A stretch of 33,494 nt of DNA, taken from assembly GCA_019243195.1 (NCBI GenBank), contig JAFAUQ010000183.1, positions 1 through 33,494 on the forward strand. Reading direction: 5' to 3'. Every line of letters starts with the position of its first letter. Positions within the stretch are counted from its first letter, which is position 1. Of the stretch, positions 3,842 through 27,068 are shown one piece after another. The notes beneath the pieces were generated by a model, which worked only from the letters and a program-made list of their open reading frames with translations, made no database searches and was not told the DNA's origin. A program made the translations under genes and the position numbers. The DNA is from Hyphomicrobiales bacterium (lineage in GTDB: Bacteria > Pseudomonadota > Alphaproteobacteria > Rhizobiales > Xanthobacteraceae).

Positions 3842-4567
3842 TCATTTGGCAGTCAGGCCGCCGTCGATGACGAACTCGGCGCCGGTGACGAAGGCGGATT
3901 CTTCGGACAGCAAATAAACGCACATCTCGGCGACCTCGGCCGGCCGGCCGAAACGGCCGAGCGGCACTTCCGCGGTCATGCGTTCGCGCGCGCGCTCCGG
4001 GTTGCGGGTCTGGCCGATCAAGTCGTCCGCCATCGGACCTTCGAGGAACGCGGGATGAATCGAGTTGCAGCGAACCTGCGGCTTGAGCCGGGCGCCGTGC
4101 AGCGCGACCGACTTGGTGAGCAGGCGCACGCCGCCCTTCGAGGCGTTGTAGGCGGCGAGGTTGTGGCCGCCGACAAGACCGGACACCGAGGAAATATTCA
4201 CGATCGCGCCGCCGGTGCGGCGCATGAGCGCGAGCGCGTGTTTGCAGCCGAGAAAAGTGCCGTCGAGGTTGATCGCCATCACGCGGCGCCAAGTGGCGAA
4301 ATCGGTGTCCTCGACATTGCCGAATACCGCGATTCCGGCTGCGTTGACGAGGCCGTCGAGCCGGCCGGCGGCGCGATCGATGTCGTCGATGACGCGACGC
4401 CAATCCTCCTCCGACGTCACGTCGAGCGAATGGTCCATGCCTGCAGCGCGGGCGAGGTCGCTGGTGACGGCAAGGCCACCGGCTTCGACGACGGCGTCGG
4501 CCATAGCCGAGCCGACAGCGCCTGCGGCGCCGGTGATGAGGATGAGTTTGTCTTGAAGCCGGCCCAT
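3842..4567 (-). CDS. SDR-family NAD(P)-dependent oxidoreductase
   Basis: The 241-residue protein is a classical short-chain dehydrogenase/reductase. It has the Rossmann glycine motif TGAAGAVG (residues 12-19), the NAAG motif (75-78), Ser126/Ser127 and the catalytic Tyr140-x3-Lys144 in AAYNASKGG. It ends with FVTGAEFVIDGGLTAK, the usual SDR C-terminal pattern. These enzymes reduce carbonyls or oxidise alcohols with NAD(P)H. The specific substrate cannot be read from sequence, although its place after an enoyl-CoA hydratase-like gene suggests an acyl or hydroxyacyl compound. It faces the coiled-coil gene convergently and is separated from the crotonase gene by 68 bases containing an inverted repeat. 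Confidence 0.9.
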   Translation of the reverse strand: MGRLQDKLILITGAAGAVGSAMADAVVEAGGLAVTSDLARAAGMDHSLDVTSEEDWRRVIDDIDRAAGRLDGLVNAAGIAVFGNVEDTDFATWRRVMAINLDGTFLGCKHALALMRRTGGAIVNISSVSGLVGGHNLAAYNASKGGVRLLTKSVALHGARLKPQVRCNSIHPAFLEGPMADDLIGQTRNPERARERMTAEVPLGRFGRPAEVAEMCVYLLSEESAFVTGAEFVIDGGLTAK

Positions 4568-4586
4568 GAAAACAGATTACCAGACA

Positions 4587-4633
4587 ACAGACGACAGACG
4601 ACGGAAATCCGTCCTCCGTCGTCCGTCTTCTGT
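4587..4633. repeat. Imperfect inverted repeat between crotonase and SDR genes
   Basis: Two 19-base arms (4587-4605 and 4615-4633) are reverse complements at 17 of 19 positions and enclose a 9-base spacer. The arms are built from an internally repeating ACAGACGAC-like unit. The structure could fold in RNA and attenuate transcription into the SDR gene, or it may be a dispersed intergenic repeat. No U-run follows, so it is not a typical terminator. Confidence 0.7.
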
Positions 4634-4635
4634 CA

Positions 4636-5436
4636 TCAGATATCGGCGAAGTCGCCGTGGCGACCCTTGCCGGCGGCAAAGCGGGCGGCGCCTGCCGCGC
4701 CTTCGATCTCGACGATGCGCGCGGAGTTCTTCCATTCGGCGCGCAGGGCCTCGCGTTCGGAGAGGCCTTCCTGCAGCCACACGGAGCGGCGGTCGGCGCG
4801 CATGCATTCCTGCGGAAAGCGGGCGATCTCGTGCGCGAGCGCCTCGGCGGCCTTGCGGCTTTCCGCATGCGGCACCAGGCGCTCGCACAACCCGATGCGG
4901 TAGCATTCCTCCGCCGGCACTTTGCGGCCGGTGAGAATGATGTCGAGCGCGCGGCCGCGCCCGACGATGCGCGGCAGGCGCACGGTGCCACCGTCGATCA
5001 GCGGCACGCCCCAGCGCCGGCAGTAGACGCCGAAGTAGGCCGTTTCTTCCATCACGCGCAGGTCGCACCACAGCGCAAGCTCCATGCCCCCGGCCACCGC
5101 CGGGCCCGCGACCGCAGCGATGACCGGCTTCGACAGCTCGAGCCGGGTCGGCCCGAGCGGCCCGCGCGGTATCTTTCCGCCATCGTTCGGGAAGTCGAGC
5201 GCGGCGAGCCGCTCCTTGGCGGTCAGCGTGGACACGTGTTTCAAATCCCAGCCGGCGCAGAACGCGCCGCCCGCGCCCCACAACACGGCTACGTGCTGCG
5301 AGGGATCGCGGTCGAAGGCGACGAGCGCGTCATGCAGCGCGTCGGCGCTCGCCGGATCCATGGCGTTGCGCGCTTCGATGCGCGAACGAACGATCGTGGT
5401 GACGGCGCCATCGCGCTCGACGTGAAGACTGTTCAT
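4636..5436 (-). CDS. Crotonase / enoyl-CoA hydratase-isomerase family protein
   Basis: The 266-residue protein has the crotonase fold signature. The first oxyanion-hole region is GAGGAFCAGWDL (about 55-65). The central region VAGPAVAGGMELALWCDLRV (about 109-128) carries the conserved Gly-Gly-x-Glu-Leu, with Glu119 in the position of the first catalytic glutamate. The usual second glutamate (the FGxPE motif) is absent: the matching stretch reads FGVYCRRWGVPLIDGG. The protein is therefore probably not a standard enoyl-CoA hydratase and may be an isomerase, a hydrolase or a branch of unknown activity. Its ATG overlaps the ureE stop by four bases (ATGA), so translation is likely coupled. It is one of a run of minus-strand genes from psd to the SDR. 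Confidence 0.87.
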   Translation of the reverse strand: MNSLHVERDGAVTTIVRSRIEARNAMDPASADALHDALVAFDRDPSQHVAVLWGAGGAFCAGWDLKHVSTLTAKERLAALDFPNDGGKIPRGPLGPTRLELSKPVIAAVAGPAVAGGMELALWCDLRVMEETAYFGVYCRRWGVPLIDGGTVRLPRIVGRGRALDIILTGRKVPAEECYRIGLCERLVPHAESRKAAEALAHEIARFPQECMRADRRSVWLQEGLSEREALRAEWKNSARIVEIEGAAGAARFAAGKGRHGDFADI

Positions 5437-7643: not shown

Positions 7644-7756
7644 CTCGTCATGCCCCGCGAAAGCGGGGCATCCAGTAAACACGGACCAAGCAGCATACGG
7701 CAAAACCTGAGAGGCTAGTGTTTACTGGATCGCCCGCTTTCGCGGGCGATGACGAG
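7644..7756. repeat. Paired-hairpin repeat, copy 1
   Basis: Each arm contains a small hairpin with a GAAA/TTTC loop. The left stem is GCCCCGC/GCGGGGC (7652-7669) and the right stem is CGCCCGC/GCGGGCG. Outside and inside them the arms are inverted copies of one another: CTCGTCAT/ATGACGAG at the ends and CCAGTAAACAC/GTGTTTACTGG inside. The centre (about 7683-7716) is unique. The element fills the gap between the ABC exporter stop and psd. It looks like a REP/BIME-type element and could also end transcription of the exporter gene. Confidence 0.85.
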
Positions 7757-11102: not shown

Positions 11103-11117
11103 GCGCGCTCCCCGTGT

Positions 11118-11220
11118 TCGTCATCGCCCGCGAAAGCGGGCGATCCAGTAAACACAGACCTTTCAAATAAAACTGCGGCCGGTGTTTACTGGATGCCCCG
11201 CTTTCGCGGGGCATGACGAG
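11118..11220. repeat. Paired-hairpin repeat, copy 2 (inverted relative to copy 1)
   Basis: This copy has the same arms as the element at 7644-7756, but the short GCCCGC/GCGGGC stem is on the left and the GCCCCGC/GCGGGGC stem is on the right. It is therefore the reverse complement arrangement of copy 1. The inner CCAGTAAACAC/GTGTTTACTGG arms are conserved while the central 25 or so bases differ. It lies between two convergent genes and its GC-rich hairpins could stop transcription from both sides. Confidence 0.85.
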
Positions 11221-11228
11221 GGCGGGAG

Positions 11229-11762
11229 TTACATCGCTTCCGGATTCTCAAAATCGCGATAGCTCTCGGATTCGCGCGGCCCCATGGCGCCTTGGTAGCG
11301 GCCGGCGTAGAGGGAAATTTCGCCCTCGACGCACCAGAACGTCACCTGCCCGATGAGCATGCCGCGAAAGATGCGCACCGGCTGCACGGCGTGCAGCTGC
11401 AAGGTCCACTGATTATACGAGCCGATGTCGATGAGATCGGCGGTGATGTGCACGAACAATCCCATGCGCGCGGTCGACGAGCGGCCGTGAATGATCGGCA
11501 CGAAGCGGTCGCTGCCCATCACCTCCTCGGTATGGGCGAGATAGATGCGCGCGGAATCGAGCACCAGGCCGTCGTCGGGAATATCGATCGAGACGGTCGG
11601 CTGCTTGACCTTGGGGTCGAGGACTTCGTTCTTATAGACCTTCACGGTGCGGCCGAGGCGGTAATTATAACTATTTGGATTGACCTGATCGACGTTGAAG
11701 GGGTCGATGCGGATCGTCCCCAAGCCGTGCTGGCGAATAATTTCAGGTCCGGTCAAAATCAT
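11229..11762 (-). CDS. dCTP deaminase-like protein A (catalytic Glu replaced by Gln)
   Basis: The 177-residue protein aligns with dCTP deaminase/dUTPase-fold trimers. It starts MILTGPEIIRQHG, has the DPFNVDQVNPNSYNYRLG segment and the substrate loop HGRSSTARMGLFVHITAD, and keeps RGMLIGQVTF. Compared with E. coli Dcd without gaps over RSS...TL, it keeps Arg110, Ser111, Arg115, His121, Ala124 and Asp128. The catalytic base Glu138 is Gln (WTLQLHA). Canonical Dcd converts dCTP to dUTP in thymidylate synthesis, and some family members act in phage defence. With Gln at 138 this protein alone may not deaminate. It follows its paralog by 7 bases on the same strand, so they should be made together. 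Confidence 0.85.
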   Translation of the reverse strand: MILTGPEIIRQHGLGTIRIDPFNVDQVNPNSYNYRLGRTVKVYKNEVLDPKVKQPTVSIDIPDDGLVLDSARIYLAHTEEVMGSDRFVPIIHGRSSTARMGLFVHITADLIDIGSYNQWTLQLHAVQPVRIFRGMLIGQVTFWCVEGEISLYAGRYQGAMGPRESESYRDFENPEAM

Positions 11763-11769
11763 GGCTGGT

Positions 11770-12276
11770 CTAATAAAGTTCGCGCATGTTGCCGGTCGGC
11801 CGGGAAAACCGCGTGTAGGGACCCGAGTAATAAGATAGCTCGCCGCGCGTCTCCCAGAAGGTCAGTTCGCCGATCAGCATGCGCGGATAGATCACGACAG
11901 GCTGCACGCAGGTCAGCTCGAGCGTCCAACGATGGGCGTCGCCGACATTGCCGAGATCCGCGGAGAGCTGCACGAACAAGCCTAATCGGCCGATCGATGG
12001 GCGCCCCATCAAGGTAACGACGCACTCGCGTGAGCCGATCACCTCATAGGTGTGGGAGAGATAAAGCCGGCCGGGCTGCAGCAGCATGCCGGCCTGTCCG
12101 ATCTCGACGACCGCATCGCCGCGCGCGGCGGCGGGGTCGGTCGAACTCAGCTCGCTGATCTCGAGGCCTAAGCGATAGCTGTAGCTCGTCGGGTTGAGCT
12201 GCGCCGGGCAATACGGGCTGATAGTGATGCTTCCCGCGGCAACGCGGCGATCAATTTCGGCTCGGCTCAGGATCAT
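11770..12276 (-). CDS. dCTP deaminase-like protein B (Glu kept, Ser111 and Asp128 changed)
   Basis: This 168-residue paralog of the next gene begins MILSRAEIDRRVAAGSITISPY and has the same fold marks (NPTSYSYRLG, LMGRPSIGRLGLFVQLSAD, MLIGELTF). In the gapless alignment to E. coli Dcd it keeps Arg110, Arg115, Ala124 and the catalytic Glu138 (WTLELTC). Ser111 is Pro, His121 is Gln and Asp128 is Asn. Its set of lost residues is thus complementary to that of paralog A. It is the first gene of the pair. A GGAG 7 to 10 bases before the ATG at 12276 is a good ribosome site. A role in dCTP removal, in regulation of the partner or in defence is possible; the sequence does not decide. Confidence 0.83.
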   Translation of the reverse strand: MILSRAEIDRRVAAGSITISPYCPAQLNPTSYSYRLGLEISELSSTDPAAARGDAVVEIGQAGMLLQPGRLYLSHTYEVIGSRECVVTLMGRPSIGRLGLFVQLSADLGNVGDAHRWTLELTCVQPVVIYPRMLIGELTFWETRGELSYYSGPYTRFSRPTGNMRELY

Positions 12277-12474: not shown

Positions 12475-13440
12475 TCACGAATGCGACCAGCCGATCCCGC
12501 GGCGTACGGCTGACGCAATGCGAGGAGGAAATTCACGGAAGAAATCCGCCCGGTCGGAAAACAAACTTCTTGCGAAACTGCTCTCGCACTCTTTCAGTTC
12601 CGCAACGAGCTGCCACGCGTGAAACCAGCCGCCGAGAGGTTCCTGCCGGATTTCGTTGATTGCCACGCTGACCAGGTCCCTGCGAATTTGCGCCCGAACG
12701 GCCGGAGGGAGCCTGTCCTGCAGGTACCATCGGTCGAGCACGCGCAGGCGCTGGAGCATTTGCAGCTTCAATTTATGGCGCGCGTTGCGATGCTGCATGC
12801 TTTCCTCATGCAGCCTGATTGCCACCAGCGGCTCGGGCACGAAGTCGACTTCGGACAGTTCGGAGAGCCTCAGCCAGAGATCCCAATCTTCAGCAAACGA
12901 CAGGCTCTCGTCGAATCCCCCGGCGCGCTCCAGCAGGGGTGCGCGCACAACGACGGACGAGCCCGACCCCGATATGAGATTGCCGCCGGTGAGAAGCGCG
13001 GCAAGCACGTGCCCGCGCAGCGTCGGAGCGATCACGTTCCTGCTGCCGGGTCGGCCGTCCTGGTTGATGAGGCGGTAGCCGCAGTACACGAAGCCGATAC
13101 CCGCAGCAAACACGGGGAGCTGCCGTTCGAGCTTGTTCGCAGCCCAGACGTCGTCGCTATCGAGAAAAGCAATGAAGGGGGCGCGGCATCTTGCGATGCC
13201 GGTATTGCGGGCGTGGGGCAGCCCGCGCTTCTCAGTACGGACTACCTCAAGAGCAGGCCAGCGCCGCTGGTAATCGGCAAGGATATCCGGCGTCGCGTCG
13301 GTCGAGCCGTCATCGACTACGACGGCGATGTGCGCCGGCCGCGTCTGTGCCATCACGCTGTCCAGGCAATCTGGCAGGTAGCGCGCTCCGTCGCGCACCG
13401 GGATCACCACGTCGACCGAGGATGGTTCGACGCCGGTCAT
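12475..13440 (-). CDS. Family 2 glycosyltransferase
   Basis: The 321-residue GT-A enzyme starts with the family 2 pattern VDVVIPVRDGARYLPDCLDSVMAQT, followed by VVDDGSTD (about 41-48) and the metal/nucleotide site LDSDDVW (Asp94-Asp97). The acceptor-side motif FAEDWDLWLRLSE (ED motif) is also present. It transfers a sugar from a nucleotide donor to the growing polysaccharide on the cytoplasmic face of the membrane. It is strikingly similar to the glycosyltransferase at 14599-15525, including CLDSV-AQTRPA and RAPF-AFLDSDDVW, so the two arose by duplication. It is the last gene of the polysaccharide cluster and starts 6 bases after the preceding gene. Donor and linkage are unknown. Confidence 0.92.
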   Translation of the reverse strand: MTGVEPSSVDVVIPVRDGARYLPDCLDSVMAQTRPAHIAVVVDDGSTDATPDILADYQRRWPALEVVRTEKRGLPHARNTGIARCRAPFIAFLDSDDVWAANKLERQLPVFAAGIGFVYCGYRLINQDGRPGSRNVIAPTLRGHVLAALLTGGNLISGSGSSVVVRAPLLERAGGFDESLSFAEDWDLWLRLSELSEVDFVPEPLVAIRLHEESMQHRNARHKLKLQMLQRLRVLDRWYLQDRLPPAVRAQIRRDLVSVAINEIRQEPLGGWFHAWQLVAELKECESSFARSLFSDRADFFREFPPRIASAVRRGIGWSHS

Positions 13441-13446
13441 TCGATA

Positions 13447-14583
13447 TCAGCCACGCGCGAAACGCAGGGCGCGGCCTAGTCGCGCCGCGCGTCGTTTTGC
13501 CCATCCGAGTCCGATCGCCCCCACTTCAACAAGACCGGTGCGCCGGCTGGTTATCGCTCGCCAGAACCAATGCGCTGCGAGGCGCGGCTCGCCGCGGCCG
13601 GCAAACCCCCGGCTCAGCATTAGCATCGCGCGGACGAGCCGGGCGCCGTCCGCTTCGGAAGCGTCGGCGAGTGCGACCAGTTCGGTCGCCTGCCGTGTGG
13701 TATCGCGCTTTGCCATCGCCTGATCGCTCGCAAGGACTGCTTCGGCGAGATCGAGCAGGATGCCCGCGCGCTCACGCGGGACGAGGCTGAAACGGTCGAG
13801 GTCTTGCGGCGCGAGCGCTGTCAGGCCCTCGGTCGGATCTGGCTTGCCGGCGCGGCGGCACCGGGAGGCAAGCAGCGCGATGCTCGTCGCCAGGGCCTGC
13901 TCGATCGGGTGATTGAAGGAAAGTTTCCCCGCATGCTGACGATAGCGCAGCAGCCGGTCCGGCAGGTTAGCCAGCGGGTATCGCGGCGCTAGGCGTAGCC
14001 ACAAATCATAGTCCTCAGCGTGCCGGTACGCGGCGCGATAGCCGCCGACTGCCCGCACGGTGTCGCGACGCATCATCACGGCTGGATGGGCGAGAGCCGA
14101 CCCCGTTTCGAGAAACGCGGCGACTGTCTCAGGCGTGCCAGGGTAATCAACGTCGCGGATAGGCTTGCCGATCTCGTCGATGAGCGTCACTGCGCAGCCC
14201 ACCACTGCGACGTCCGGCCGCGTGTCGAGGAAAGCAACCTGCCGCGCGAAACGCTCCGGATGCGCGACGTCGTCCGCATCCATCCGTGCGATGAACTCCC
14301 CACGCGCAAGCGCCAGCCCGCGGTTGAGCGACGCGATGATTCCGGCGTTCTCCTGAACGAGCACGATCACGCGGCTATCCGCCTTTGCCAGCCGAGCGAG
14401 GATTTCGCCGGATGCATCGCTTGAACCATCATCGATCGCGATTAGCTCGAAATCGCGAAAGCTTTGCGCAAGGATGCTGTTCAACGCTTCGGTCAGGAAC
14501 GCCTCGCCGTTGTAAACGGGCAAGACGACGCTGACCCGCGGAGCGCGCGCGGTATCGATGTGGCGCGGCTGCTCGGCGGTCAC
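13447..14583 (-). CDS. Family 2 glycosyltransferase
   Basis: The 378-residue protein has an N-terminal GT-A domain: VSVVLPVYNGEAFLTEALNSILAQSF (about 17-42), AIDDGSSD (about 49-56), the metal site ARMDADD (Asp102-Asp105), and AYRHAEDYDLWLRL for the acceptor side. It is more distantly related to the two flanking glycosyltransferases and has a longer, Ala/Arg-rich helical C-terminus (about 240-378) that may mediate membrane or partner contact. Translation starts at GTG 14583, 15 bases after the previous stop. It should add one sugar of the repeat unit. Specificity cannot be inferred. Confidence 0.91.
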   Translation of the reverse strand: MTAEQPRHIDTARAPRVSVVLPVYNGEAFLTEALNSILAQSFRDFELIAIDDGSSDASGEILARLAKADSRVIVLVQENAGIIASLNRGLALARGEFIARMDADDVAHPERFARQVAFLDTRPDVAVVGCAVTLIDEIGKPIRDVDYPGTPETVAAFLETGSALAHPAVMMRRDTVRAVGGYRAAYRHAEDYDLWLRLAPRYPLANLPDRLLRYRQHAGKLSFNHPIEQALATSIALLASRCRRAGKPDPTEGLTALAPQDLDRFSLVPRERAGILLDLAEAVLASDQAMAKRDTTRQATELVALADASEADGARLVRAMLMLSRGFAGRGEPRLAAHWFWRAITSRRTGLVEVGAIGLGWAKRRAARLGRALRFARG

Positions 14584-14598
14584 GCGAAACCCTCTGCG

Positions 14599-15525
14599 CT
14601 AGCGATGAGCCGCGTCGGCGACGGCGCGCACAAAGGACATGGCATAAGCGCGCCGGGTCGGGAACAGCCGCCGCGCCAACGGCACGTCGCTCGCGCGCAG
14701 ACGCCTGCGCAGTCCCCACCGGGGCGGAAATCGCAGCATGTTCTTGAGGTCGAGTCGTACCGCTTCGATGCGACTCGCCTCAAGGATCCGGCCGCTTTCG
14801 GGCACTCGGTCGATCCATTTATCGAGAATACGCAGGCGTTCGAGGAGAAATATTTCCGGCCCGTTGGCGCGCCGGTGCTGGCTGCCGAGCGGATGGATGC
14901 GCACGCGGGTCAACTCCTCGCCAACAAAATCGAGATGGCTCACCCTTGCCAGTCTGATCCACAAGTCCCAATCCTCGCCATGGAACAGGCTTTCGTCGAA
15001 CCCGCCAGTCGCCGTGACGAGATCGCGCCGGGCGACGACGGCGGATGCCGATCCTGCAACGCCGTCGCCGAGCAGCAGGTCGGCGAACACATCGCCCCGC
15101 TTGCGCGGGGTAACCACGCGTGTCGCAAGTCGCCGCCCTTCCTCGTCGATACAGAAATAGGCGCAGTGAACGAAACCAATCTCCGGGCGATCGGCAGCAA
15201 ACAGCGCCATCTGTTTAACGAGCTTGTCCGGATGCCAAACGTCGTCGCTGTCGAGGAAGGCGACGAACGGCGCGCGGCTTGCCCCGAGGGCCAGGTTGCG
15301 CGCATGCGAAACGCCGCGCGGCTCGCTGCGGATGACCTGCAGGTTCGGTCGCCGAGCGCTGTATTCGGCAAGGATGTCCGCCGTTTCATCGGTCGAGCCA
15401 TCGTCGGCGACGATCACCGCGCGCGCCGGACGAGTCTGCGCGAACACGCTGTCGAGACAGGGACGCAGAAACCGCGCGCCGTTGCGCACGGGAATAAGTA
15501 CATCGACTTCGGGATTCGCCGGCAC
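14599..15525 (-). CDS. Family 2 glycosyltransferase
   Basis: The 308-residue GT-A enzyme shows VDVLIPVRNGARFLRPCLDSVFAQT (about 7-31), VADDGSTDET, the metal-site motif LDSDDVWHPDKL (about 91-102) and FHGEDWDLWIRLARV. It closely resembles the 12475-13440 enzyme over the catalytic domain; the C-terminal 60 residues differ and are Arg-rich. The GTG at 15525 follows the methyltransferase stop by 2 bases, so the genes are cotranscribed and probably coupled. It is one of four family 2 enzymes in the cluster, giving, with the fucosyltransferase, five candidate linkages. Confidence 0.92.
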   Translation of the reverse strand: MPANPEVDVLIPVRNGARFLRPCLDSVFAQTRPARAVIVADDGSTDETADILAEYSARRPNLQVIRSEPRGVSHARNLALGASRAPFVAFLDSDDVWHPDKLVKQMALFAADRPEIGFVHCAYFCIDEEGRRLATRVVTPRKRGDVFADLLLGDGVAGSASAVVARRDLVTATGGFDESLFHGEDWDLWIRLARVSHLDFVGEELTRVRIHPLGSQHRRANGPEIFLLERLRILDKWIDRVPESGRILEASRIEAVRLDLKNMLRFPPRWGLRRRLRASDVPLARRLFPTRRAYAMSFVRAVADAAHR

Positions 15526-15527
15526 GC

Positions 15528-16361
15528 TCAGGGGCCGAGCCGTTTGACCGCCCGCACGAAGATACCGAAGTTGAGCAGCTCGCGGCTGCCTTTGTCTTTG
15601 GCCGACATGCGCCCGAGCATGCGCAATACGATCTGCGCCGCCAGCCGCTCAAGCTTGCTGCAGTCCTCGTCTGCATAGCGCTGGGCAAATACATCCACGT
15701 GCCGCAGCAGCATGGCGACAAATTCGAAGAAATTACCGTTCTCGACCAGCTCCACAATCTCGAACCCGCGGTACTGAAGATGAGATTCATAGAAATATCT
15801 ATTGAACCCGGTCGCGTAATGATACGGCGCGAAATGCGTCGTACTGACGAAAGGCGCCGTGATAATCAGCGTTCCGCCGGGCTTGAGGACGCGCTCAAGT
15901 TCCTTCAGCGCCACTACCGGGTCGCTCACGTGCTCAAGAACTTCGGTGCATAGCACTGCGTCGAACGAGGCGTCCGGCACCGGGATATCGGTGATGTCGC
16001 TGACAATGTCGATTCTGGAGGTGTCCCACGACCCCATTTGCAATCCGACCTCGCCGGTCCCGTCGTACTTCGCGAGATCCTGCGAGACGTAGCGCAGGTG
16101 CCCGCAGTACTTCTTGTAGGCACACTCGCCCGCCCCGGCATCGAGCAGGCTTGCACCCGTCGGCAGTTCCGAGAGGACCTTCTTGAGCCAAGCCTCGCGG
16201 ATCGCTTCGTTCGATAGGCCTACGTCGTAGCCCAAGGGATCGAGGGCGAGAATTTTTCTACGGGCGTCTCGAGGCAGCCCAGCGAACTCGCGCACGGAAC
16301 CGCCGAAGAAGCGCAATCGGGTCAGCCGCTCCCGGCCTCCGACCAGCGCGGCCGCGAGCAA
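15528..16361 (-). CDS. Class I SAM-dependent methyltransferase
   Basis: The 277-residue protein has a Methyltransf_11/25-type Rossmann domain. Motif I is SLLDAGAGECAYKKY (about 71-85), with an acidic strand end in RYVSQDLAKYDG, the FDAVLCTEVLEHVSDP motif and LKPGGTLIITAPF. The C-terminal third includes THFAPYHYATGFNRYFYESHL, common in polysaccharide-cluster methyltransferases. It most likely methylates a sugar or a chain-end group of the exported polymer. The frame opens at a TTG (16361) without a clear ribosome site; a GTG at 16295 is an alternative that would still keep the whole domain. It lies between an FkbM methyltransferase and a glycosyltransferase. Confidence 0.88.
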   Translation of the reverse strand: MLAAALVGGRERLTRLRFFGGSVREFAGLPRDARRKILALDPLGYDVGLSNEAIREAWLKKVLSELPTGASLLDAGAGECAYKKYCGHLRYVSQDLAKYDGTGEVGLQMGSWDTSRIDIVSDITDIPVPDASFDAVLCTEVLEHVSDPVVALKELERVLKPGGTLIITAPFVSTTHFAPYHYATGFNRYFYESHLQYRGFEIVELVENGNFFEFVAMLLRHVDVFAQRYADEDCSKLERLAAQIVLRMLGRMSAKDKGSRELLNFGIFVRAVKRLGP

Positions 16362-16384
16362 GCCGACAGTGCCGCGAAAGCTGC

Positions 16385-17230
16385 TCAGCCGAATAGCCGG
16401 ACTAAGTCCGCTCGGACGTAAAGCCTGTCGTTTATCAACTCGGCCGCCAGCGCATATCCCATGGACGAAAGCTTGCGATGCAATTCACGTGGCTGCCGCG
16501 CGCCGATCCAGCCACCGAACGATGCCGCCTCCACGTAGACGAGCTTCGGCAGAATACGCCCGAAACCGGCGACGACGTCGTGCTCCGCGCCCTCGGCATC
16601 GATATGGGCAACGTCTACTTCGCCGACGCTGGCCCGAGCGCAGAAGGTGTCGATCCTGACCCCTTCGATGCTCATCGGCACTGCGCCCTGGGTTACGAAA
16701 TCGTAGCGACGCGCGTATTCGGGCGAGTGCCGGTACATCGATCCCTGCGACCCTGCACCGGCGTCGCGGAAACGGCCGTCATGCGATTGATACCATGACA
16801 CCGGCGCATCCCGGTCGCAAACCGCGGCGTTGACGCAGATAATTCCGAAGGGCGCGACGTTGTCCGACACGATCCGATGGCGCTCCGGATCCGCCTCGAA
16901 AGCGACGACCCGTGCGTCCGGAAATCGGTACTTGAACCGAATGGAATCGCCGCCGTCATAGGCCCCCACGTCGAGAACAACCTTGGGAGAAATCCGCAGC
17001 TCGTCGAGCCACGCCATGTTGAACCGACTCTGATAGAGCCGACGCTCCTCGAGCGTGCCCGGCACGAGGCAAACGAAATCGCCGTCCCGCTCCGCGGCAT
17101 TGTGGACAAGCTGCAGGTCGTTGATGCGCGATCTCAGCAGTTCGATTTCATCGAGCAGCCGCTCATCCGGCCAGCGCCGTCCGATCCTCTGTAAAACCTT
17201 GCGCGCGGTCCGGCGAGCCAAGCGATACAT
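16385..17230 (-). CDS. FkbM-family methyltransferase
   Basis: The 281-residue protein carries the FkbM domain. Motif I is VVLDVGAYDGGDSIRF (about 84-99), then VVAFEADPERH, a conserved acidic cofactor contact. The later segment VDVAHIDAEGAEHDVVAGFG is the FkbM I-D-x-E-G-x-E signature. An N-terminal helical region (1-60) precedes the domain. FkbM-type enzymes O-methylate hydroxyls, here probably on a sugar of the polymer. The ATG at 17230 has AGG 7 to 9 bases upstream. A second FkbM gene precedes it after a 95-base gap that is relatively AT-rich and contains no recognisable signal. Confidence 0.91.
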   Translation of the reverse strand: MYRLARRTARKVLQRIGRRWPDERLLDEIELLRSRINDLQLVHNAAERDGDFVCLVPGTLEERRLYQSRFNMAWLDELRISPKVVLDVGAYDGGDSIRFKYRFPDARVVAFEADPERHRIVSDNVAPFGIICVNAAVCDRDAPVSWYQSHDGRFRDAGAGSQGSMYRHSPEYARRYDFVTQGAVPMSIEGVRIDTFCARASVGEVDVAHIDAEGAEHDVVAGFGRILPKLVYVEAASFGGWIGARQPRELHRKLSSMGYALAAELINDRLYVRADLVRLFG

Positions 17231-17325
17231 TTGTTGCCTATAGGGTTGCTATTACAGCTTAAACCCTTATCCCGCGCAGACCCGGCGCAACGACACCGAT
17301 CGGGACCCGGCTCAACACCGAGAGC

Positions 17326-18105
17326 TCAACTACTGGATTTGGGTAACGGATCCAACATGAACATCCCATTATGCGGTGTCTCGCACATGCGGCGATATCC
17401 CTTCGAACCAAGGAAGCGGTCGAACTCGGCGATCGAATGCGACTTTTCGATGCAAATGATCCATGGCCGGAAACGCGTAAAGTCGAGCGACTGCAGGATT
17501 GCGAAATCGACCGATTCCGCATCGATTGATAGAAAGTGCGGTGCAACGCCGTCGAGGTGCTGCTCTATGATCTCATTGATCGGGATGAGCTTCACGTCGA
17601 CCCTACCTACGATCGACAAACTCGCGCTCCAGCCGACGGAAGCGGTAACGACCCGTTCCGCCTGTGCCTCGGAAAATGTGTTGAAAACACTCGGGTGAAG
17701 GCGAATGAGCGTTGCCGTCCTCCGCTCGTCGAATGCGACCGCGGCGTTTACAACAATGTCGCGCGGACGCCTGCTCCTGAGCTTCTCGGCCATCACGACA
17801 TCAGGCTCGACCAGCACTCCCTTGGCGCCCCGTATATACATCGTCATCGTATTGCTGAGCGCAACCGGATCCGAGGCGCCCACGTCAAGATAGCGAATTT
17901 TGTTTAGTTCAACGCCGGCGTTGCGAAGCCATCCGAGGGCGACGCAATCCTCGCCGGCGGCGGAAAATGAGATAACCGTGTCGGGATCGAAATTCGGTTC
18001 CAGCGGCCACCGATAGATCCTGTACGCGACAAGATGGCGTACCGGCCGCGTGTGGTCTCGCAGGAAATCCCACACGGTTTTGAGGAGCCTTCGCAGAATC
18101 GGCAC
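17326..18105 (-). CDS. FkbM-family methyltransferase
   Basis: The 259-residue protein is a second FkbM-type enzyme, not closely similar to its neighbour. It has IRYLDVGASDPVALSNTM (about 70-87), GVLVEPDVVMAEKL with an acidic cofactor residue at Glu99, and LSIDAESVDFAILQSLD, the I-D-x-E-x-x-D variant of the signature. It ends with YRRMCETPHNGMFMLDPL. The product should O-methylate a sugar hydroxyl. It starts with GTG at 18105, 49 bases after the wzt stop. Its place directly after the exporter genes fits a chain-modifying or chain-capping role, which is inference. Confidence 0.9.
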   Translation of the reverse strand: MPILRRLLKTVWDFLRDHTRPVRHLVAYRIYRWPLEPNFDPDTVISFSAAGEDCVALGWLRNAGVELNKIRYLDVGASDPVALSNTMTMYIRGAKGVLVEPDVVMAEKLRSRRPRDIVVNAAVAFDERRTATLIRLHPSVFNTFSEAQAERVVTASVGWSASLSIVGRVDVKLIPINEIIEQHLDGVAPHFLSIDAESVDFAILQSLDFTRFRPWIICIEKSHSIAEFDRFLGSKGYRRMCETPHNGMFMLDPLPKSSS

Positions 18106-18154
18106 GGCAGATATTACTTCAAGTCACTGTCCGAGATGCATCCAAACACATCCG

Positions 18155-19438
18155 CTAATCCGTCGTCGCACTCCACGACACCACGGGGGCAACCACGCCC
18201 GAGCGGGCCGTGGTCCAATAGGGCGAGTCGCTCAAACCGCCTGCGATCCGCAGGAACACCGCGTAAGGTGTCGCTCCGGGCTGGGAAAACCACACCTGAT
18301 TGTGGATCCCAGCATGCAGCTCGAGTCGAAAGAGGCCTTGGTTGAGGAAGCGTTTCGGTACCGCGCTCGTCAACGTCACCCGGCCGCACTCGAGCTTGGG
18401 CCAGTGCTCCCTCGTTTGATCAGTCGTCAGCGTCCAGTACACCCGTACGCCCGATTCATTGACGATCGAATAGCCGAAATTCAACCCGGGATGCGTCTTC
18501 CTGACGTCGAGCGCAATCTCGATCACCGCCTGCTCGTCGTTGCGAATGGGACGGGTAATCGTCTTGCCCGCGTCATCGCGGGCACGGAAGGAGCGCAAGG
18601 CGAAATACTCGGTATCCAGCGCCGCATCGACCGGCGGCCGCCATTCCGACTTGAGCGCGGCGGCACCCTCCTCGCCGAACAGGTAACGCGTGGTAACAGC
18701 ATAAGCGTCGTGCGAATCCTCGATCACCGCGCCCCCGTTGATCCAGATCACGCGGCTGCACAGCTGATCGATCGCGTTCATATTATGTGAGACGAACAGG
18801 ATGGTGCGGCCGGTGCGCGAGAGGTCCTCCATCTTGCCCAAGCATTTCTTCTGAAATTCGGCGTCGCCGACGGCAAGCACCTCGTCGACCACCAGGATTT
18901 CCGGGTCGAGATGCGCGGCCACCGCGAAGGCGAGGCGCATCTGCATCCCGCTCGAGTAGCGCTTGACCGCCGTATCGATGAAATCCTCGACACCGGAGAA
19001 GGCGACGATTTCGTCGAATTTCCGCGCGATCTCGGCGCGGTGCATGCCGAGAATGGTGCCGTTGAGAAACACGTTCTCGCGCCCGGTCAGTTCGTGATGA
19101 AACCCGGTGCCGACCTCGAGCAAGGTGCCGGTCCTGCCGTTAAGCCGCACTTCGCCCACGGTGGGCGCCGTGATTTGCGAGATGATCTTGAGCAACGTGC
19201 TTTTTCCAGAGCCGTTGCGGCCGATGATGCCGACGACCTCGCCCGGTTCGACGGCGAAAGAGACGTCGTTGAGCGCCCAGAACCGCTCCGTGACGGCAGA
19301 CCCCGCTGACGCTGTGCCGCCGCCTACCCGGCGGGCCCATTCCGCCAGCGCGTCCCGCAACGTCATGATGTGCCGCCGATGGGCCGCGCCGCGCACATAT
19401 TGTTTGCCGAGGCCAAGCGCCTCGATCGCCCAAGTCAT
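18155..19438 (-). CDS. wzt: Wzt-type polysaccharide ABC exporter ATPase with cargo-binding domain
   Basis: The 427-residue protein has an N-terminal ATPase: Walker A GRNGSGKST (73-81), signature YSSGMQMRLA (161-170), Walker B ILVVDEVLAVGD (181-192) and SHNM (217-220), as in Wzt/KpsT/TagH. A separate C-terminal domain from about residue 265 to 427 is rich in beta strands (VIEIALDVRKTHPGLNFGYSI, FRLELHAGIHN). It corresponds to the Wzt C-terminal domain, which in E. coli O8/O9a binds the methyl- or phosphomethyl-capped chain end. It powers export of lipid-linked glycan across the inner membrane with Wzm, whose gene is 18 bases upstream. Length agrees with two-domain Wzt proteins. Confidence 0.93.
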   Translation of the reverse strand: MTWAIEALGLGKQYVRGAAHRRHIMTLRDALAEWARRVGGGTASAGSAVTERFWALNDVSFAVEPGEVVGIIGRNGSGKSTLLKIISQITAPTVGEVRLNGRTGTLLEVGTGFHHELTGRENVFLNGTILGMHRAEIARKFDEIVAFSGVEDFIDTAVKRYSSGMQMRLAFAVAAHLDPEILVVDEVLAVGDAEFQKKCLGKMEDLSRTGRTILFVSHNMNAIDQLCSRVIWINGGAVIEDSHDAYAVTTRYLFGEEGAAALKSEWRPPVDAALDTEYFALRSFRARDDAGKTITRPIRNDEQAVIEIALDVRKTHPGLNFGYSIVNESGVRVYWTLTTDQTREHWPKLECGRVTLTSAVPKRFLNQGLFRLELHAGIHNQVWFSQPGATPYAVFLRIAGGLSDSPYWTTARSGVVAPVVSWSATTD

Positions 19439-19456
19439 GGTTCACAAAGTCATGTT

Positions 19457-20281
19457 TCAGATGCGATCGACGAGGGTTCCCTCGACGCGGCGGAAAAGGT
19501 TGAGGCCGCCCCAGAACAGCAGCACGGTCGATAAAAGCGTGAAGACGACCCCCGCGGCGGACGGTGGCTCGCTGCCCAGCAGCGCCCAGCGCATGGCATC
19601 GACCATCACGGCGACCGGGCTGAGCCGATAGAGCCAGCGCACGCTTTCCGGCACGATCGAGGCCGGATAAGCGATCGGGCTCAGGTACATCGCGACTTGC
19701 AGCGTGAACGGCAAGAGAATGCCGATGTCGCGATAGATCGCGTGCAGCGGCGCCAGACAAAGTGCAACCGCATAACCGAACAGGCCGACAAACAGCAACA
19801 CAAACGGCACGAAGACCGCGGTCCAGTGCAGCTGCGCCTGAAACAACAGGGCGATGACGAGAAGCACCGCGACACCCAACAGGCAATCGAGCGCCGCCGA
19901 ACACGGCGCGACCAGCGGAACGACGATGCGGGGGAAATAGACTTTGGTGATCAACGACGAATTGGTCACGAGGCTCGATGTGCCCTCGGTGACGGCGCGG
20001 CTGAAGTATTGCCAGATCACCAGGCCGGCAAAGGCGAACACCGGATAAGGCACGCCGGGCGACGGCAGCCGGATGAATATGACGAACACGATGGTGAAGA
20101 TCGCGGTCGTGACAATGGGCTGCAGCACCGCCCACAGGATGCCCAAGGCGGCTTGGCGATAGCGTACGGCGATGTCGCGCTTGATCAGCACCGCCAGGAT
20201 GCCGCGGCCGCGCCAGAGGTCCCGCAGCTCCTCGATCAGCCGACGGTCGTCGATCGGCCTGATGATTCTCACAACAGACAA
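19457..20281 (-). CDS. wzm: Wzm-type polysaccharide ABC exporter permease
   Basis: The 274-residue protein is an ABC-2 family permease with about six membrane helices. A cytoplasmic N-terminal stretch contains DLWRGRGILAVLIKRDIAVRYRQAALGILWAVLQP, the amphipathic interface helix typical of Wzm/KpsM/TagG. The segment MYLSPIAYPASIVPESVRWLYRLSPVAVMVDAMRWALLG is the conserved extracellular re-entrant region. Two copies with two Wzt form the channel for lipid-linked polysaccharide. The TTG start at 20281 is supported by GAGGG 8 to 12 bases upstream; a GTG three codons in is an alternative. The gene starts 10 bases after the fucosyltransferase stop. Confidence 0.93.
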   Translation of the reverse strand: MSVVRIIRPIDDRRLIEELRDLWRGRGILAVLIKRDIAVRYRQAALGILWAVLQPIVTTAIFTIVFVIFIRLPSPGVPYPVFAFAGLVIWQYFSRAVTEGTSSLVTNSSLITKVYFPRIVVPLVAPCSAALDCLLGVAVLLVIALLFQAQLHWTAVFVPFVLLFVGLFGYAVALCLAPLHAIYRDIGILLPFTLQVAMYLSPIAYPASIVPESVRWLYRLSPVAVMVDAMRWALLGSEPPSAAGVVFTLLSTVLLFWGGLNLFRRVEGTLVDRI

Positions 20282-20291
20282 CGAAGGACCC

Positions 20292-21278
20292 TCACTCGCG
20301 CGGCATCGTCACCCATCTCGCGGGCAGCAGGTCGGGCGTCTCGGACCTTTGGGTAAACCACGGGGTGGGAGCGACGACGGTTTGGTCTTCACTCGCTGCC
20401 AGCCAGGCGCCCCACCAGCTCATGGACGAATTGGCGATTACGTGATGCCGGCATGCCGCCATCAAGCGCAACTCGTCCTGCCCGGCATCGGGCTTGTTGG
20501 CGTCGACGATGACCGTGTCGTGATCGGCGAGATGTTCGCGACACCATGCCCAGTCGTCGGAAAAGACGAAGAACCGCGGATCGGTAACCCGCTCGCGCAC
20601 CAGCCGCAACGCGCGATGGTAGTAATCGGCCGAACACAGGCCGTGATGCCGGAAGTGCGCCGGGAGCAAATAATCGCCGCGCCGCACGTGAACGCAGACC
20701 GCGTTTGCCGCGCGAATGCGCGCCAGCCATTGCGCGTTGGCCGCGTCCGGCGCGCGCTGGTAGGTGAGCTCCTGACGGACGAGATCGGCGATTTCGGCGA
20801 AATAGCGTTCGCTTTGCCAATAGCCGACCAGATAAGTCTGCGGGCCGCAGTGCGAAAACCGCGCATCGAAATCGAAGCTTCGCTCGTTGAATACCGCAAG
20901 GGCATTCTCGCCGGTGGCGCGCCCTATCGGGATATTCCGCGCACGCAGAAGCCGCGCCGCACGATCAATCCAGCCGGGCCATCGGGGGGCGGGAAATTGC
21001 ACGGCTGATAATCGCGGAGGATGGCGATATCCGTCGAACCGGATCTCGGCCGCGAGCGCATAACCCTCGAGGGCGTAGGCGCGCCGCGTTTGGGGAAGCG
21101 TAAAGCCAGTGGCGTCGAGGATGAGCCGCGCGCCGGTACGCACGGCCAGACTTCGCCCCGCCGCGTATTGGAACATTTGATTGCCAAGCCCGCCAAAAAG
21201 GCTGGCAACCACGGTGGCAGTTCGGTGATGCGGCACGCTCGATTCGCGGTTTCGAAGTGCCGCCGTCGCGTTCATCAT
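20292..21278 (-). CDS. Alpha-1,2-fucosyltransferase, GT11 family
   Basis: The protein is GT11: it opens with the diagnostic FGGLGNQMFQYAAGRSLA (about 28-45) and contains the donor-binding motif CVHVRRGDYL (about 190-199) and FVFSDDWAWCREHL. Near the end, ANSSMSWWGAWLA matches the conserved C-terminal motif. It transfers L-fucose from GDP-fucose to a galactose or similar acceptor in alpha-1,2 linkage. The three genes upstream supply GDP-fucose. The ATG at 21278 overlaps the fcl TGA by one base (TGATG), so coupling is likely; it was preferred to an in-frame TTG at 21308. The second codon is also ATG. Confidence 0.94.
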   Translation of the reverse strand: MMNATAALRNRESSVPHHRTATVVASLFGGLGNQMFQYAAGRSLAVRTGARLILDATGFTLPQTRRAYALEGYALAAEIRFDGYRHPPRLSAVQFPAPRWPGWIDRAARLLRARNIPIGRATGENALAVFNERSFDFDARFSHCGPQTYLVGYWQSERYFAEIADLVRQELTYQRAPDAANAQWLARIRAANAVCVHVRRGDYLLPAHFRHHGLCSADYYHRALRLVRERVTDPRFFVFSDDWAWCREHLADHDTVIVDANKPDAGQDELRLMAACRHHVIANSSMSWWGAWLAASEDQTVVAPTPWFTQRSETPDLLPARWVTMPRE

Positions 21279-22237
21279 CAACGCTTTCGAGCACCCTCGC
21301 GCGAGCAAAAATCGGCGTAGGCGGCCTTGAGGCCGTCCCGTAGCGGCGTCTGCGCGCGCCAGCCGAGCGCGGCAAGCTTGGCGACGTCGAGCAGCTTGCG
21401 CGGCGTGCCGTCAGGCCGCGAGGTGTCGAACACGATTTTGCCCGAATAGCCCACGACGTCGGCGACGAGGCGAGCGAACTCCGCGATGGTGATGTCCTCG
21501 CCGGTGCCGACGTTGAGAAAACCGTCGCCGGAATAATATTTCATCACGAACACGCAGGCGTCGGCGAGGTCGTCGGCGGCCAGGAACTCGCGGCGCGGCG
21601 TGCCCGTCCCCCAAACCGCAACGGTTGGCGCGCCGGAAGCCTTGGCCTCGTGAAACCGCCGGATGAGCGCCGCCGGCACATGGCTGTGTTCCGGATGATA
21701 GTTGTCGCCTGGGCCGTAGAGATTCGTCGGCATCACCGAGATGAAGTCGGCGCCGAACTGGCGCCGATACGCCTGGCACAACTTGATGCCCGCGATTTTC
21801 GCGACCGCGTACCACTCGTTGGTCGGCTCGAGCGGGCCGGTGAGCAGCTGCTCCTCGGTGATCGGCTGCTCCGCAAGGCGCGGATAAATGCACGAGGAGC
21901 CGAGGAACAGGAGCTTCTTGACGCCCGTGGCGTGCGCGGCGCGGATCACGTTAAGCGCGATCGCGAGATTGTCGCCGATGAAGGCGACGGGGTAGGAATT
22001 ATTAGCGCTGATGCCGCCGACGCGCCCGGCAGCGAGAAACACCGCGTCAGGCTTCTCCCGCGCGAGCCACCGCTCGGTCTGCGCCTGGTCGGCCAAGTCG
22101 AGCGCGCCGTGTTTGGCGGTGAGGATCTCGCAATTCTCACGTGCAAGCCGCCTCGCGATGGCGGAGCCCGCCATACCCGTGTGGCCCGCGACATAGACGC
22201 GCTTGCCGGCGAGATCGAACAGCAGCGGCGGGCTCAT
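21278..22237 (-). CDS. fcl: GDP-L-fucose synthase
   Basis: The 319-residue protein is the epimerase/reductase that converts GDP-4-keto-6-deoxymannose to GDP-L-fucose with NADPH. It shows the nucleotide site [18 protein letters not shown] (about 14-31), [38 protein letters not shown] and the catalytic Tyr-x3-Lys in [21 protein letters not shown]. The [32 protein letters not shown] segment is almost invariant in the family. The ATG at 22237 is 16 bases after the gmd stop. With gmd and manC it makes a complete route from mannose-1-phosphate to GDP-L-fucose. Confidence 0.96.
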
Positions 22238-22253
22238 CTTATTTGCCTCGGTC

Positions 22254-23321
22254 TCATTCGCGCCGGTTGCGGCGCGCCTGCTCGTTGCGCACGGCCTTGA
22301 GATCGGTCTCGACCATCTCCTCGACCAATTGCGCGAACGATACCTTGTGCTGCCAACCGAGCTTCTGCCTGGCTTTCGACGCGTCGCCGATCAACAAATC
22401 GACTTCTGTCGGACGGAAATAGCGCGGGTCGATCTCGACCAGCGCCTGTCCGGTGGCGCCATCGAGGCCGCGCTCGGCCGCGCCGCTCCCCTGCCAGTCG
22501 ATGCGCCGCCCGACACAGGCAAACGCCTTCTCGACGAACTCGCGGATCGAATGGCTCTCTCCGGTCGCGAGCACGTAATCGTCGGGCTCGGGCTGCTGGA
22601 CGATGCGCCACATCCCTTCGACGAAATCGCGCGCATGGCCCCAGTCGCGCCGGGCTTCGAGGTTGCCGAGATAGAGCTTGTTCTGCAGTCCGAGTTCGAT
22701 CGCCGCAACCGCGCGGGTGATCTTGCGCGTGACGAAGGTCTCGCCCCGGGTCGGCCCTTCGTGATTGAACAGGATGCCGTTCGAGGCATGGATACCGTAA
22801 GCCTCGCGGTAGTTCACCGTGATCCAATAGGCGTAAAGCTTGGCGACGCCATAGGGCGAGCGCGGATAGAACGGCGTCGTCTCCCGCTGCGGCACTTCGC
22901 GAACCGCGCCATAAAGTTCCGAGGTCGAGGCCTGATAGAACCTGACCCGCTTCTCCATGCCGAGAATGCGGATCGCCTCCAGCAATCGCAGCGTGCCGAG
23001 CGCGTCGGCATTCGCGGTGTATTCCGGCGTCTCGAACGAAACCAGCACGTGGCTCTGGGCCGCGAGGTTGTAGATCTCGTCGGGCTGGGTCTCCTGAATG
23101 ATGCGGATCAGATTGGTCGCATCGGTCATGTCGCCGTAGTGCAGGAGGAACGGTACACCGGCTTCATGCGGGTCATGGAACAGATGATCGACCCTTTCCG
23201 TGTTGAACGAGGAAGATCGCCGTTTGGTGCCATGAACCGTGTAACCCTTGGCGAGCAGGAGTTCGGCGAGATAGGCGCCGTCCTGTCCGGTGACGCCGGT
23301 GATCAGTGCAACACGTGGCAT
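22254..23321 (-). CDS. gmd: GDP-mannose 4,6-dehydratase
   Basis: The 355-residue protein converts GDP-D-mannose to GDP-4-keto-6-deoxy-D-mannose using bound NADP. It has the family motif [19 protein letters not shown] (about 5-23), [16 protein letters not shown], the catalytic region [18 protein letters not shown] and Tyr-x3-Lys in [22 protein letters not shown], then [21 protein letters not shown]. Length and order match bacterial Gmd. Sixty bases separate it from manC and contain a palindromic CCCGCATG repeat. Confidence 0.97.
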
Positions 23322-23341
23322 GATGAGTATTTACTAACCGG

Positions 23342-23372
23342 TAGCCCGCATGAGGGCAGCGACATGCGGGGG
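23342..23372. repeat. Short palindromic intergenic repeat (CCCGCATG type)
   Basis: CCCGCATG (23345-23352) and CATGCGGG (23363-23370) form a perfect 8-base stem with a 10-base loop, between manC and gmd. From memory, closely similar palindromes are very frequent between genes in Bradyrhizobium and relatives. It may be a REP-type element with an effect on transcript ends or stability within the operon. Confidence 0.8.
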
Positions 23373-23381
23373 AGGGATTCC

Positions 23382-24803
23382 CTACGAACCGCGCTTATAC
23401 ACATCCTCAAGCCGGATGATGTCGTCCTCGCCGAAATAACTGCCGGTCTGGACTTCGATCAGTTCGAGCGGGATTCTTCCAGGGTTGGCGAGGCGGTGGA
23501 CCGCCCCGATCGGGATATAGGCCGACTCGTTCTCGTGGACGATCTTCTTGCTCTCGCCGATCGTCACTTCCGCCGTCCCGCGCACCACCACCCAGTGCTC
23601 TGCGCGGTGCAGATGCTTCTGCAGCGAAAGCACGCCGCCGGGGGCGACGAGGATGCGCTTGACCTGAAAGCGCTCGCCCGAATCCACCGATTCATAATGA
23701 CCCCAAGGGCGATAAACGCGGCGATGGTCGGTCGCCTGTGGCCGCGCGTCTTTTTTGAGCGCCGCGACCAATTCCTTGACCGCCTCGGCGCGTTCGCGCG
23801 GCACCACCAGCACGGCATCGCGGCTTGCGACCACCATCATGTCCTTGGCGCCGACGACAGCGGTCAGCACGTCGTCGGCATGGATGAGGCAATCCTGCGC
23901 ATCGAGGGCGACCGCCGGCCCGTGCGCGGCGTTGCCCGCCGCATCGCGCTCGGTGACCTCGAAGATGGCGGCCCAGTTGCCCACGTCCGACCAGCGGAAC
24001 CGGCCCTCGACCACGGCGGCGCGCTCGGTGCGCTCCATCACCGCATAATCGATCGAAATCTGTGGCGCCCGGGCAAAGGCCTCGGCGTCGAGCCGCACGA
24101 AGCCGAGATCGGTCGTGGCGTTGGTTACCGCGGCATCCGCCGCCTGCGCGACCTCGGGCGCATAGCGCGCCAGTTCGTCGAGCAGAACGTCGGCGCGGAA
24201 GAGGAAATTGCCGGAGTTCCACAAATAACCGTCGGCGACGTAGCGCCCAGCGGTGGCTTCGTCCGGCTTCTCCACGTAGGCGGCAACCGCATGGACAGCG
24301 GCATGGCCGAGCGCCGCGCCCGGCCGGATGTAACCGTACCCGGTCTTCGGCGCGGACGGACGAATGCCGAACGTCACGATGCGGCCTTCCTCGGCGGCAT
24401 CGCGCCCGGCCAGGCAGGCCGCGCGGAACAGCTCAAGATCGAAAATCACGTGATCGGCGGCGAGCGTGAGCACGATCGCCGAAGGGTCGCGCGCGCGGGC
24501 GATCGTCGCCGCCACCGCAATCGCCGCGGCGGAATCGCGCCGCATCGGTTCGAGCACGACGGTCGGTTCCATTCCGATGTCCTGCGCCTGCCGGCGCGCA
24601 AAGAAGCGGAAGGCATCCGAGGTCATGACGACCGGCGGAGCAAATAATGCCGCGTTGCTCACGCGCGCGAGCGCCTGCTGGAAGGTCGAGCGCTCGCCGG
24701 CGAGCGGCAGAAATTGCTTGGGCATGCTGTCGCGCGAGATCGGCCACAGGCGCGTGCCGGTGCCGCCGGCGAGGATCACGGGAATGATGAGCGACGATGC
24801 CAT
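23382..24803 (-). CDS. manC: Mannose-1-phosphate guanylyltransferase / mannose-6-phosphate isomerase
   Basis: The 473-residue bifunctional enzyme begins with the nucleotidyltransferase signature LAGGTGTRLWPISRDSMPKQFL (about 11-32) and has SGNFLFRADVLLDEL and FRWSDVGNWAAIFEV in the catalytic domain. The C-terminal 120 residues form the cupin domain of type II phosphomannose isomerase: YRPWGHYESVDSGERFQVKRI, LQKHLHRAEHWVVVRGTAEV with metal-binding His residues, and YIPIGAVHRLANPG. It makes GDP-mannose, the donor for mannose and the precursor of GDP-fucose. It starts 3 bases after the upstream glycosyltransferase stop. Confidence 0.96.
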   Translation of the reverse strand: MASSLIIPVILAGGTGTRLWPISRDSMPKQFLPLAGERSTFQQALARVSNAALFAPPVVMTSDAFRFFARRQAQDIGMEPTVVLEPMRRDSAAAIAVAATIARARDPSAIVLTLAADHVIFDLELFRAACLAGRDAAEEGRIVTFGIRPSAPKTGYGYIRPGAALGHAAVHAVAAYVEKPDEATAGRYVADGYLWNSGNFLFRADVLLDELARYAPEVAQAADAAVTNATTDLGFVRLDAEAFARAPQISIDYAVMERTERAAVVEGRFRWSDVGNWAAIFEVTERDAAGNAAHGPAVALDAQDCLIHADDVLTAVVGAKDMMVVASRDAVLVVPRERAEAVKELVAALKKDARPQATDHRRVYRPWGHYESVDSGERFQVKRILVAPGGVLSLQKHLHRAEHWVVVRGTAEVTIGESKKIVHENESAYIPIGAVHRLANPGRIPLELIEVQTGSYFGEDDIIRLEDVYKRGS

Positions 24804-24806
24804 GCT

Positions 24807-25682: not shown

Positions 25683-25710
25683 GTGCGATTCCGAATTGGT
25701 TCGACGCGCC

Positions 25711-25721
25711 CATGCTACCGC
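25711..25721 (-). promoter_or_regulatory. ops-like element in the cluster leader
   Basis: On the coding strand the leader reads GCGGTAGCATG, which differs at one position from the last 11 bases (GCGGTAGCGTG) of the E. coli ops element (GGCGGTAGCGTG) that recruits RfaH to paused polymerase. It lies 28 bases before the GTG of the first glycosyltransferase gene and downstream of the RfaH-like gene. The first base of the 12-base element differs (T for G). A role as recruitment site is inference. Confidence 0.45.
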
Positions 25722-25788
25722 ACTCCGGGTGACTCGTGTCCTCCGGGATCGCCCTGCGGCTCGCGACACCGAAGCGCCGCGAGATCAA

Positions 25789-27038: not shown

Positions 27039-27068
27039 GCTGTTCTCCCGCCCCGGCCGCTGGTAGAT

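Follow-up and report, generated by a model that had tools for sequence, protein, structure and literature searches.

To our knowledge, enzymes of the DCD/DUT group are either homotrimers or fused repeats. Residues are numbered here as in E. coli Dcd, whose landmark residues fell at the expected numbers. In the dUTPase superfamily, each active site combines motif III of one subunit with motifs I, II and IV of its neighbour (PMC12524310). DCD active sites sit between two protomers (PMC12088426). The motif III hairpin touches the base with both of its ends, and the HVTA peptide where it begins is among the contacts (PMC4827122). This geometry places residues 121, 128 and 138 together on the hairpin of one chain, with motif II (residues 110–112 and, by inference, 115) coming from the neighbour. 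R115 is presumably on the motif II side, as superfamily geometry suggests.

The window analysed here is the whole stretch of 33,494 nucleotides from a Hyphomicrobiales bacterium (contig JAFAUQ010000183.1). On its minus strand it contains two genes of this kind, B upstream and A downstream, separated by a 7-nt gap, and a GGAG motif precedes B. The motifs listed below were placed by alignment, and their coordinates are codon spans computed from the ORF start.

11770-12276, minus strand: protein B, 168 aa, intact ORF; DCD-fold subunit and proposed donor of motif III (the catalytic hairpin)
11986-12006, minus strand: motif II of B, GRPSIGR, B residues 91-97 (Dcd 109-115), with Pro for S111
11914-11970, minus strand: motif III hairpin of B, QLSADLGNVGDAHRWTLEL, B residues 103-121 (Dcd 121-139), with E138 present
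11229-11762, minus strand: protein A, 177 aa, intact ORF; DCD-fold subunit and proposed donor of motif II
11466-11486, minus strand: motif II of A, GRSSTAR, A residues 93-99 (Dcd 109-115), intact
11394-11450, minus strand: motif III hairpin of A, HITADLIDIGSYNQWTLQL, A residues 105-123 (Dcd 121-139), with Q138

A and B are 44% identical to each other, and both match the Pfam DCD family (PF22769; A, 8e-36 and 123.9 bits; B, 9.8e-24 and 84.6 bits; gathering cut-off 27). Both fall below the 92.8-bit cut-off of the dCTP deaminase equivalog TIGR02274 (A 84.8 bits, B 57.3 bits). A also scores below the curated 130-bit cut-off of PRK02253, the DCD-fold dUTPase model (23.3 bits), and below the cut-offs of DCD_N (16.9 bits, cut-off 21.4) and PRK07559 (14.5 bits, cut-off 283). 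Because the last two scores are under their cut-offs and the pair is encoded by two genes, it is not the fused alphaproteobacterial Dcd (PRK07559/DCD_N). Structures were modelled as single chains, from small alignments without plasmid-derived rows. The AlphaFold model of A (pLDDT 83) had M. tuberculosis DCD-DUT (4a6a) as its best PDB match, with a TM score of 0.87, and A is predicted to have the DCD fold. The model of B was poor (pLDDT 49), and B is assigned to DCD by sequence. A third DCD-like match in the host genome is a dUTPase.

The active-site residues of the two proteins differ in a reciprocal manner. A has S111, R115, H121, D128 and Q138 (S95, R99, H105, D112 and Q122 in its own numbering). 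B has P111, R115, Q121, N128 and E138, the general base, as well as a B-specific His at 133 (P93, R97, Q103, N110, E120 and H115, respectively). The alignment bears out all the residues that the initial annotation had named, both in A (S111, R115, H121 and D128 present, Gln for E138) and in B (E138 and R115 present, with Pro, Gln and Asn at 111, 121 and 128). Its description of the comparison with Dcd as gapless holds over residues 109–139 but not over the full length, where Dcd has insertions. Taken alone, the hairpin of A resembles a deaminase-dead, dUTPase-type site. Neither chain has the full set of S111, R115, E138 and D128, which places the pair outside TIGR02274, and E138-type and D128-type residues do not occur in the same hairpin, which places it outside the bifunctional DCD-DUT class. 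By its clade placement and its reciprocal pattern at 138 and 128, it is a member of a two-gene A-B family.

We found 20 A-B pairs, in Pseudomonadota, Actinomycetota, Bacillota, Patescibacteria and one unassigned MAG. They occur on plasmids of Streptomyces, Nocardiopsis, Nonomuraea, Embleya, Rhizobium etli and R. sullae, and among the other hosts are Enterococcus caccae, MAG SUG1400 and five Patescibacteria genomes. In many pairs the A and B genes overlap by 4 nt. The initial annotation had suggested a search for co-occurrence, and had held that its idea would fail if orthologs of either gene were commonly found alone. The search found the two genes together in distant bacteria; all plasmid records with an A- or B-type protein contain both (11/11), as do the five Patescibacteria genomes. 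In a Clostridia MAG, single copies of A and B are on separate contigs, and at locus L005 the contig ends 52 bp from A. Among the plasmid records, Patescibacteria genomes and MAGs examined, neither core A nor core B was shown to occur alone. The cassette is rare. Public annotation often calls A a dCTP deaminase despite its missing catalytic Glu, and lists B as hypothetical.

The residue pattern of the window pair at 138 and 128 is shared by the whole family. A keeps S111, R115 and D128 in 20/20 pairs and E138 in none, with position 138 being mostly Gln and otherwise Met or Thr. B keeps E138 in 20/20 pairs and D128 in none, the Asp being replaced by His, Asn or Gln. All 18 core B proteins have Q121 and the new His at 133, and 14 of them have Ser at 111. 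Pro at 111 is confined to window B, and P111 was therefore rejected as a family trait. In a sample of 120 single-copy relatives, S111, R115 and E138 were present in every protein, and H121 and D128 in 119. The Embleya plasmid (locus L106) has two further arrangements. One (4103-4798) is a B-type protein fused to an A-type tail, about 11 kb from a divergent pair, and is apparently a second cassette whose genes were fused by a deletion. The other (14998-16203) joins an A-like DCD domain to about 230 residues in one long frame, and by eye the extra part resembles a PEP-utilising/PPDK N-terminal domain.

In a phylogenetic tree, A formed one clade (support 97/90) and B another (99/89), both inside a joint clade (100/97) that also includes the divergent pairs of L105 and L106 and a single-copy Patescibacteria protein (L166). 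This topology fits a single duplication giving rise to A and B, followed by their transfer together. The ancestor would have been a single-copy dCTP deaminase, whose duplicates then moved between bacteria as a two-gene cassette. The Patescibacteria protein (L166 4097-4615) has E138 and D128 intact and lies downstream of a radical SAM gene; it is possibly the pre-duplication form. At locus L007, too, a radical SAM gene is found, upstream of B. The distance matrices of A and B were correlated (r=0.77, a value reached in none of 20000 permutations; r=0.72 after near-copies were removed). For both proteins dN/dS was 0.08–0.15 in close comparisons, including one B without motif II, and thus A and B are under purifying selection.

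Vertical inheritance within the host order was considered and rejected, because sampling of 61 relatives and 399 phylum members showed the pair in the host genome only, and the relatives carry the fused PRK07559 enzyme. This fused protein, the usual enzyme of the order, was present in 12/12 other genomes tested (in one as an end fragment only) and was not seen in the pair's own 66%-complete assembly. A viral origin was also rejected, as no B-type protein was found in IMG/VR or INPHARED and the viral matches inspected were all single-copy. Three IMG/VR contigs (L171, L172 and L175) encode single viral DCD-family proteins with Q138 and an otherwise near-canonical hairpin, and no partner gene was seen within 3 kb of any of them. 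Thus, loss of E138 alone neither demands a partner nor defines the family.

How might two such proteins form an active site? The initial annotation had proposed that a hetero-oligomer rebuilds complete sites. The idea of an obligatory two-component enzyme, probably a hetero-oligomer, gains support from the co-inheritance of the genes, their conservation and their reciprocal losses. One route to it, in which A lends B its H121 and D128, was rejected, because 121 and 128 lie on the same β-hairpin (motif III) as E138, and sharing of His/Asp with Glu is ruled out. On balance, A and B probably assemble into one enzyme of the DCD/dUTPase superfamily, a hetero-oligomer and most likely a heterotrimer, with motif II of A and motif III of B complementing each other in trans. 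Deaminase-type catalysis would be confined to interfaces that bring the hairpin of B, with E138, up to motif II of A, with S111 and R115; the reciprocal interface, between the hairpin of A and motif II of B, would have no catalytic base. Like DCD-fold dUTPases, A may retain nucleotide binding or hydrolysis at its own hairpin, which keeps D128, or this site may be regulatory. The residue pattern, the co-inheritance of the genes, purifying selection and the DCD fold of A are observed; from them we infer that A and B assemble, which sites work, and what kind of substrate they use.

The pattern of motif II losses fits this division of labour. B has lost motif II in three lineages and kept E138 in each: window B has P111, Patescibacteria have N111 and K115, and L105 and L106 have R111 with Ser or Thr at 115. 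Motif II of A is never lost in pairs, and this contrast is what sharing of motif II (A) with motif III (B) would lead one to expect. R115 and E138 variants of E. coli Dcd, including E138Q, reportedly have no detectable activity, and by the same token A alone should not deaminate. Loss of motif II in B co-varied with residue 121 of A (Fisher p=0.007), although the association was unsupported after allowing for phylogeny in an underpowered comparison and is suggestive only.

The same losses bear on a second explanation, in which A and B form two separate homotrimers that act in sequence as a two-gene DCD-DUT, B3 deaminating the nucleotide and A3 hydrolysing the product, with the genes kept together for that reason. 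B homotrimers are conceivable in the 14 of 20 pairs where B has both S111 and R115. In addition, A keeps D128, the Asp of DCD-fold dUTPases, together with Gln, Met or Thr at 138, and a solved archaeal-type dUTPase (9ln0, which reads TLMLYN) also has a residue other than Glu there. The PRK02253 model at E<=1e-3 matches 12/14 A and 0/13 B, as well as 4/12 canonical singles, and the viral singles with Q138 show that such proteins exist alone. However, B lacks S111 and/or R115 in three lineages, where B3 would miss catalytic groups, yet E138 never varies and dN/dS stays low. Congruence and adjacency point to physical partners, though a shared pathway would fit them too. We therefore regard separate homotrimers as unlikely, while giving them real weight.

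It is quite improbable that one subunit alone is catalytic, with B deaminating and A acting as a nucleotide-binding allosteric subunit or pseudoenzyme, or the reverse. In DCD trimers an allosteric loop, located where the hairpin begins, mediates cooperative inhibition by dTTP (PMC4827122), and A retains binding residues without E138, both of which such a regulatory role would accommodate. It would leave the repeated loss of motif II in B, and never in A, unexplained, and it becomes a special case of the heteromer if A also supplies motif II. The heteromer is a probable reading, well supported by the evolutionary pattern.

The altered residues of B also bear on the substrate. Q121, the His, Asn or Gln at 128, and H133 cannot be repaired by A, so the nucleotide that is deaminated probably has a changed sugar or base. 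These changes suggest altered sugar or base recognition, and the substrate is probably not ordinary dCTP. Elsewhere, the pair recurs next to a P-loop kinase that matches phrog_139 (dNMP kinase) and next to a cytidine-deaminase family protein, and the two are fused in Rhizobium; in R. sullae (L104 13492-14520) a dNMP-kinase-like domain joined to a PRK06848-type cytidine deaminase adjoins the pair. Other recurrent neighbours are SAM methyltransferases, GT4 glycosyltransferases and S66 LD-carboxypeptidases with class II aaRS-like proteins. A MurA-like enolpyruvyltransferase with a phosphoesterase and a TauD-type dioxygenase were each seen in a single case. These neighbours resemble specialised metabolism of nucleosides and nucleotides, which suggests modified nucleotides. 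The fuller proposal is a tentative one that we hold with somewhat less than even confidence: A and B would form an obligate heterotrimer, catalytic at motif II (A)–motif III (B) interfaces alone, whose substrate would be a modified pyrimidine nucleotide rather than dCTP. It would work in mobile pathways along with a dNMP kinase, a cytidine-deaminase-like protein, methyltransferases and glycosyltransferases.

The initial annotation had also raised a link to phage defence, which found no support: neither A nor B matched a PADLOC defence model, and no defence genes were recognised among the neighbours inspected. The dCTP deaminases reported from defence systems are zinc-dependent enzymes of another fold.

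In the window itself, the pair adjoins a polysaccharide export cluster (12475-25769), which comprises GT2 glycosyltransferases, FkbM methyltransferases, a Wzt/Wzm-like ABC exporter, GT11, GDP-mannose dehydratase and epimerase, and ManC. Beyond it lies a 504-aa ORF (25888-27402) with a NusG domain at residues 341–435 only. Between A and a convergent LOG-family gene, at 11111-11226, there is an imperfect 50-nt inverted repeat (82% complementary, 16-nt loop), whose core, CCAGTAAACAC, is also present as an inverted pair at 7672/7718 (~7672-7728). It looks like a dispersed palindromic element.

None of the recurrent neighbour genes lies in the window, and no member of the dNMP kinase or CDA family turned up in the host's 66%-complete assembly. 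Could the cassette be a decaying or non-functional import here, with P111 and a long B branch reflecting relaxed selection after the pathway genes were lost? The branch leading to window B is indeed very long (1.85), and P111 is unique among core B. Against this, both ORFs are full length and in operon order, with the 7-nt gap and GGAG before B; A is conserved; and P111 falls in motif II, which B could dispense with if the site is composite. We consider decay very improbable, and retain the A-B heteromer as our reading of the window pair.

We found no earlier description of the pair or its cluster in the literature. If the heterotrimer is real, it would be, so far as we found, the first two-gene heteromeric member of the DCD/dUTPase superfamily. 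A two-gene enzyme with its site split between subunits would illustrate from nature the passage from a homomer to an obligate heteromer, and with the deaminase Glu set apart from the hydrolase Asp, the two chemistries could be studied separately. In Streptomyces, Nonomuraea, Rhizobium, Enterococcus and Patescibacteria, the pair is also a marker of nucleotide-modifying clusters that are so far uncharacterised.

Among known systems, monofunctional Dcd (TIGR02274, E. coli 1XS1) shares with the pair the fold, the motif II pattern GRSSxxR and the hairpin framework, with E138 found in B. Dcd is homomeric, however, and has all catalytic residues in each chain, whereas in the pair they are split over two chains, B lacks D128 and H121, and both proteins fall under the equivalog cut-off. 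Bifunctional DCD-DUTs (M. jannaschii, M. tuberculosis 2QXX/4A6A, B. halodurans 4XJC) are the closest solved structures to A (TM 0.83–0.87, about 30% identity). They carry the E138-type base and the D128-type Asp in one chain, whereas in the pair E138 is found only in B and D128 only in A. DCD-fold dUTPases (PRK02253-like; T. pacificus 8Y1W, P45 9LN0/9LN3, S. tokodaii 2ZDC) resemble A in lacking the deaminase Glu while keeping motif II and the hairpin Asp, and 9LN0 has Met at 138, as does the A of L161. These dUTPases stand alone, whereas A is always linked to B and is nearer in sequence to dCTP deaminases.

The division of the site itself has two parallels. In the fused alphaproteobacterial Dcd (PRK07559, DCD_N; Agrobacterium 2R9Q), one repeat keeps motif II and the other the catalytic hairpin, as in the pair: motif II is in the N-domain, and the His/Asp/Glu hairpin is in a C-domain without motif II (by eye where the aligner shifted the C-domain). 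In contrast to the pair, it is a single chain of about 370 aa from a distant branch, it is the usual enzyme of the host's order, and its C-domain hairpin keeps His, Asp and Glu. In the monomeric dUTPase of herpesviruses, duplicated domains divide motif III from motifs I, II and IV (PMC12524310), again like the pair, but that enzyme is fused, viral and a dUTPase only.
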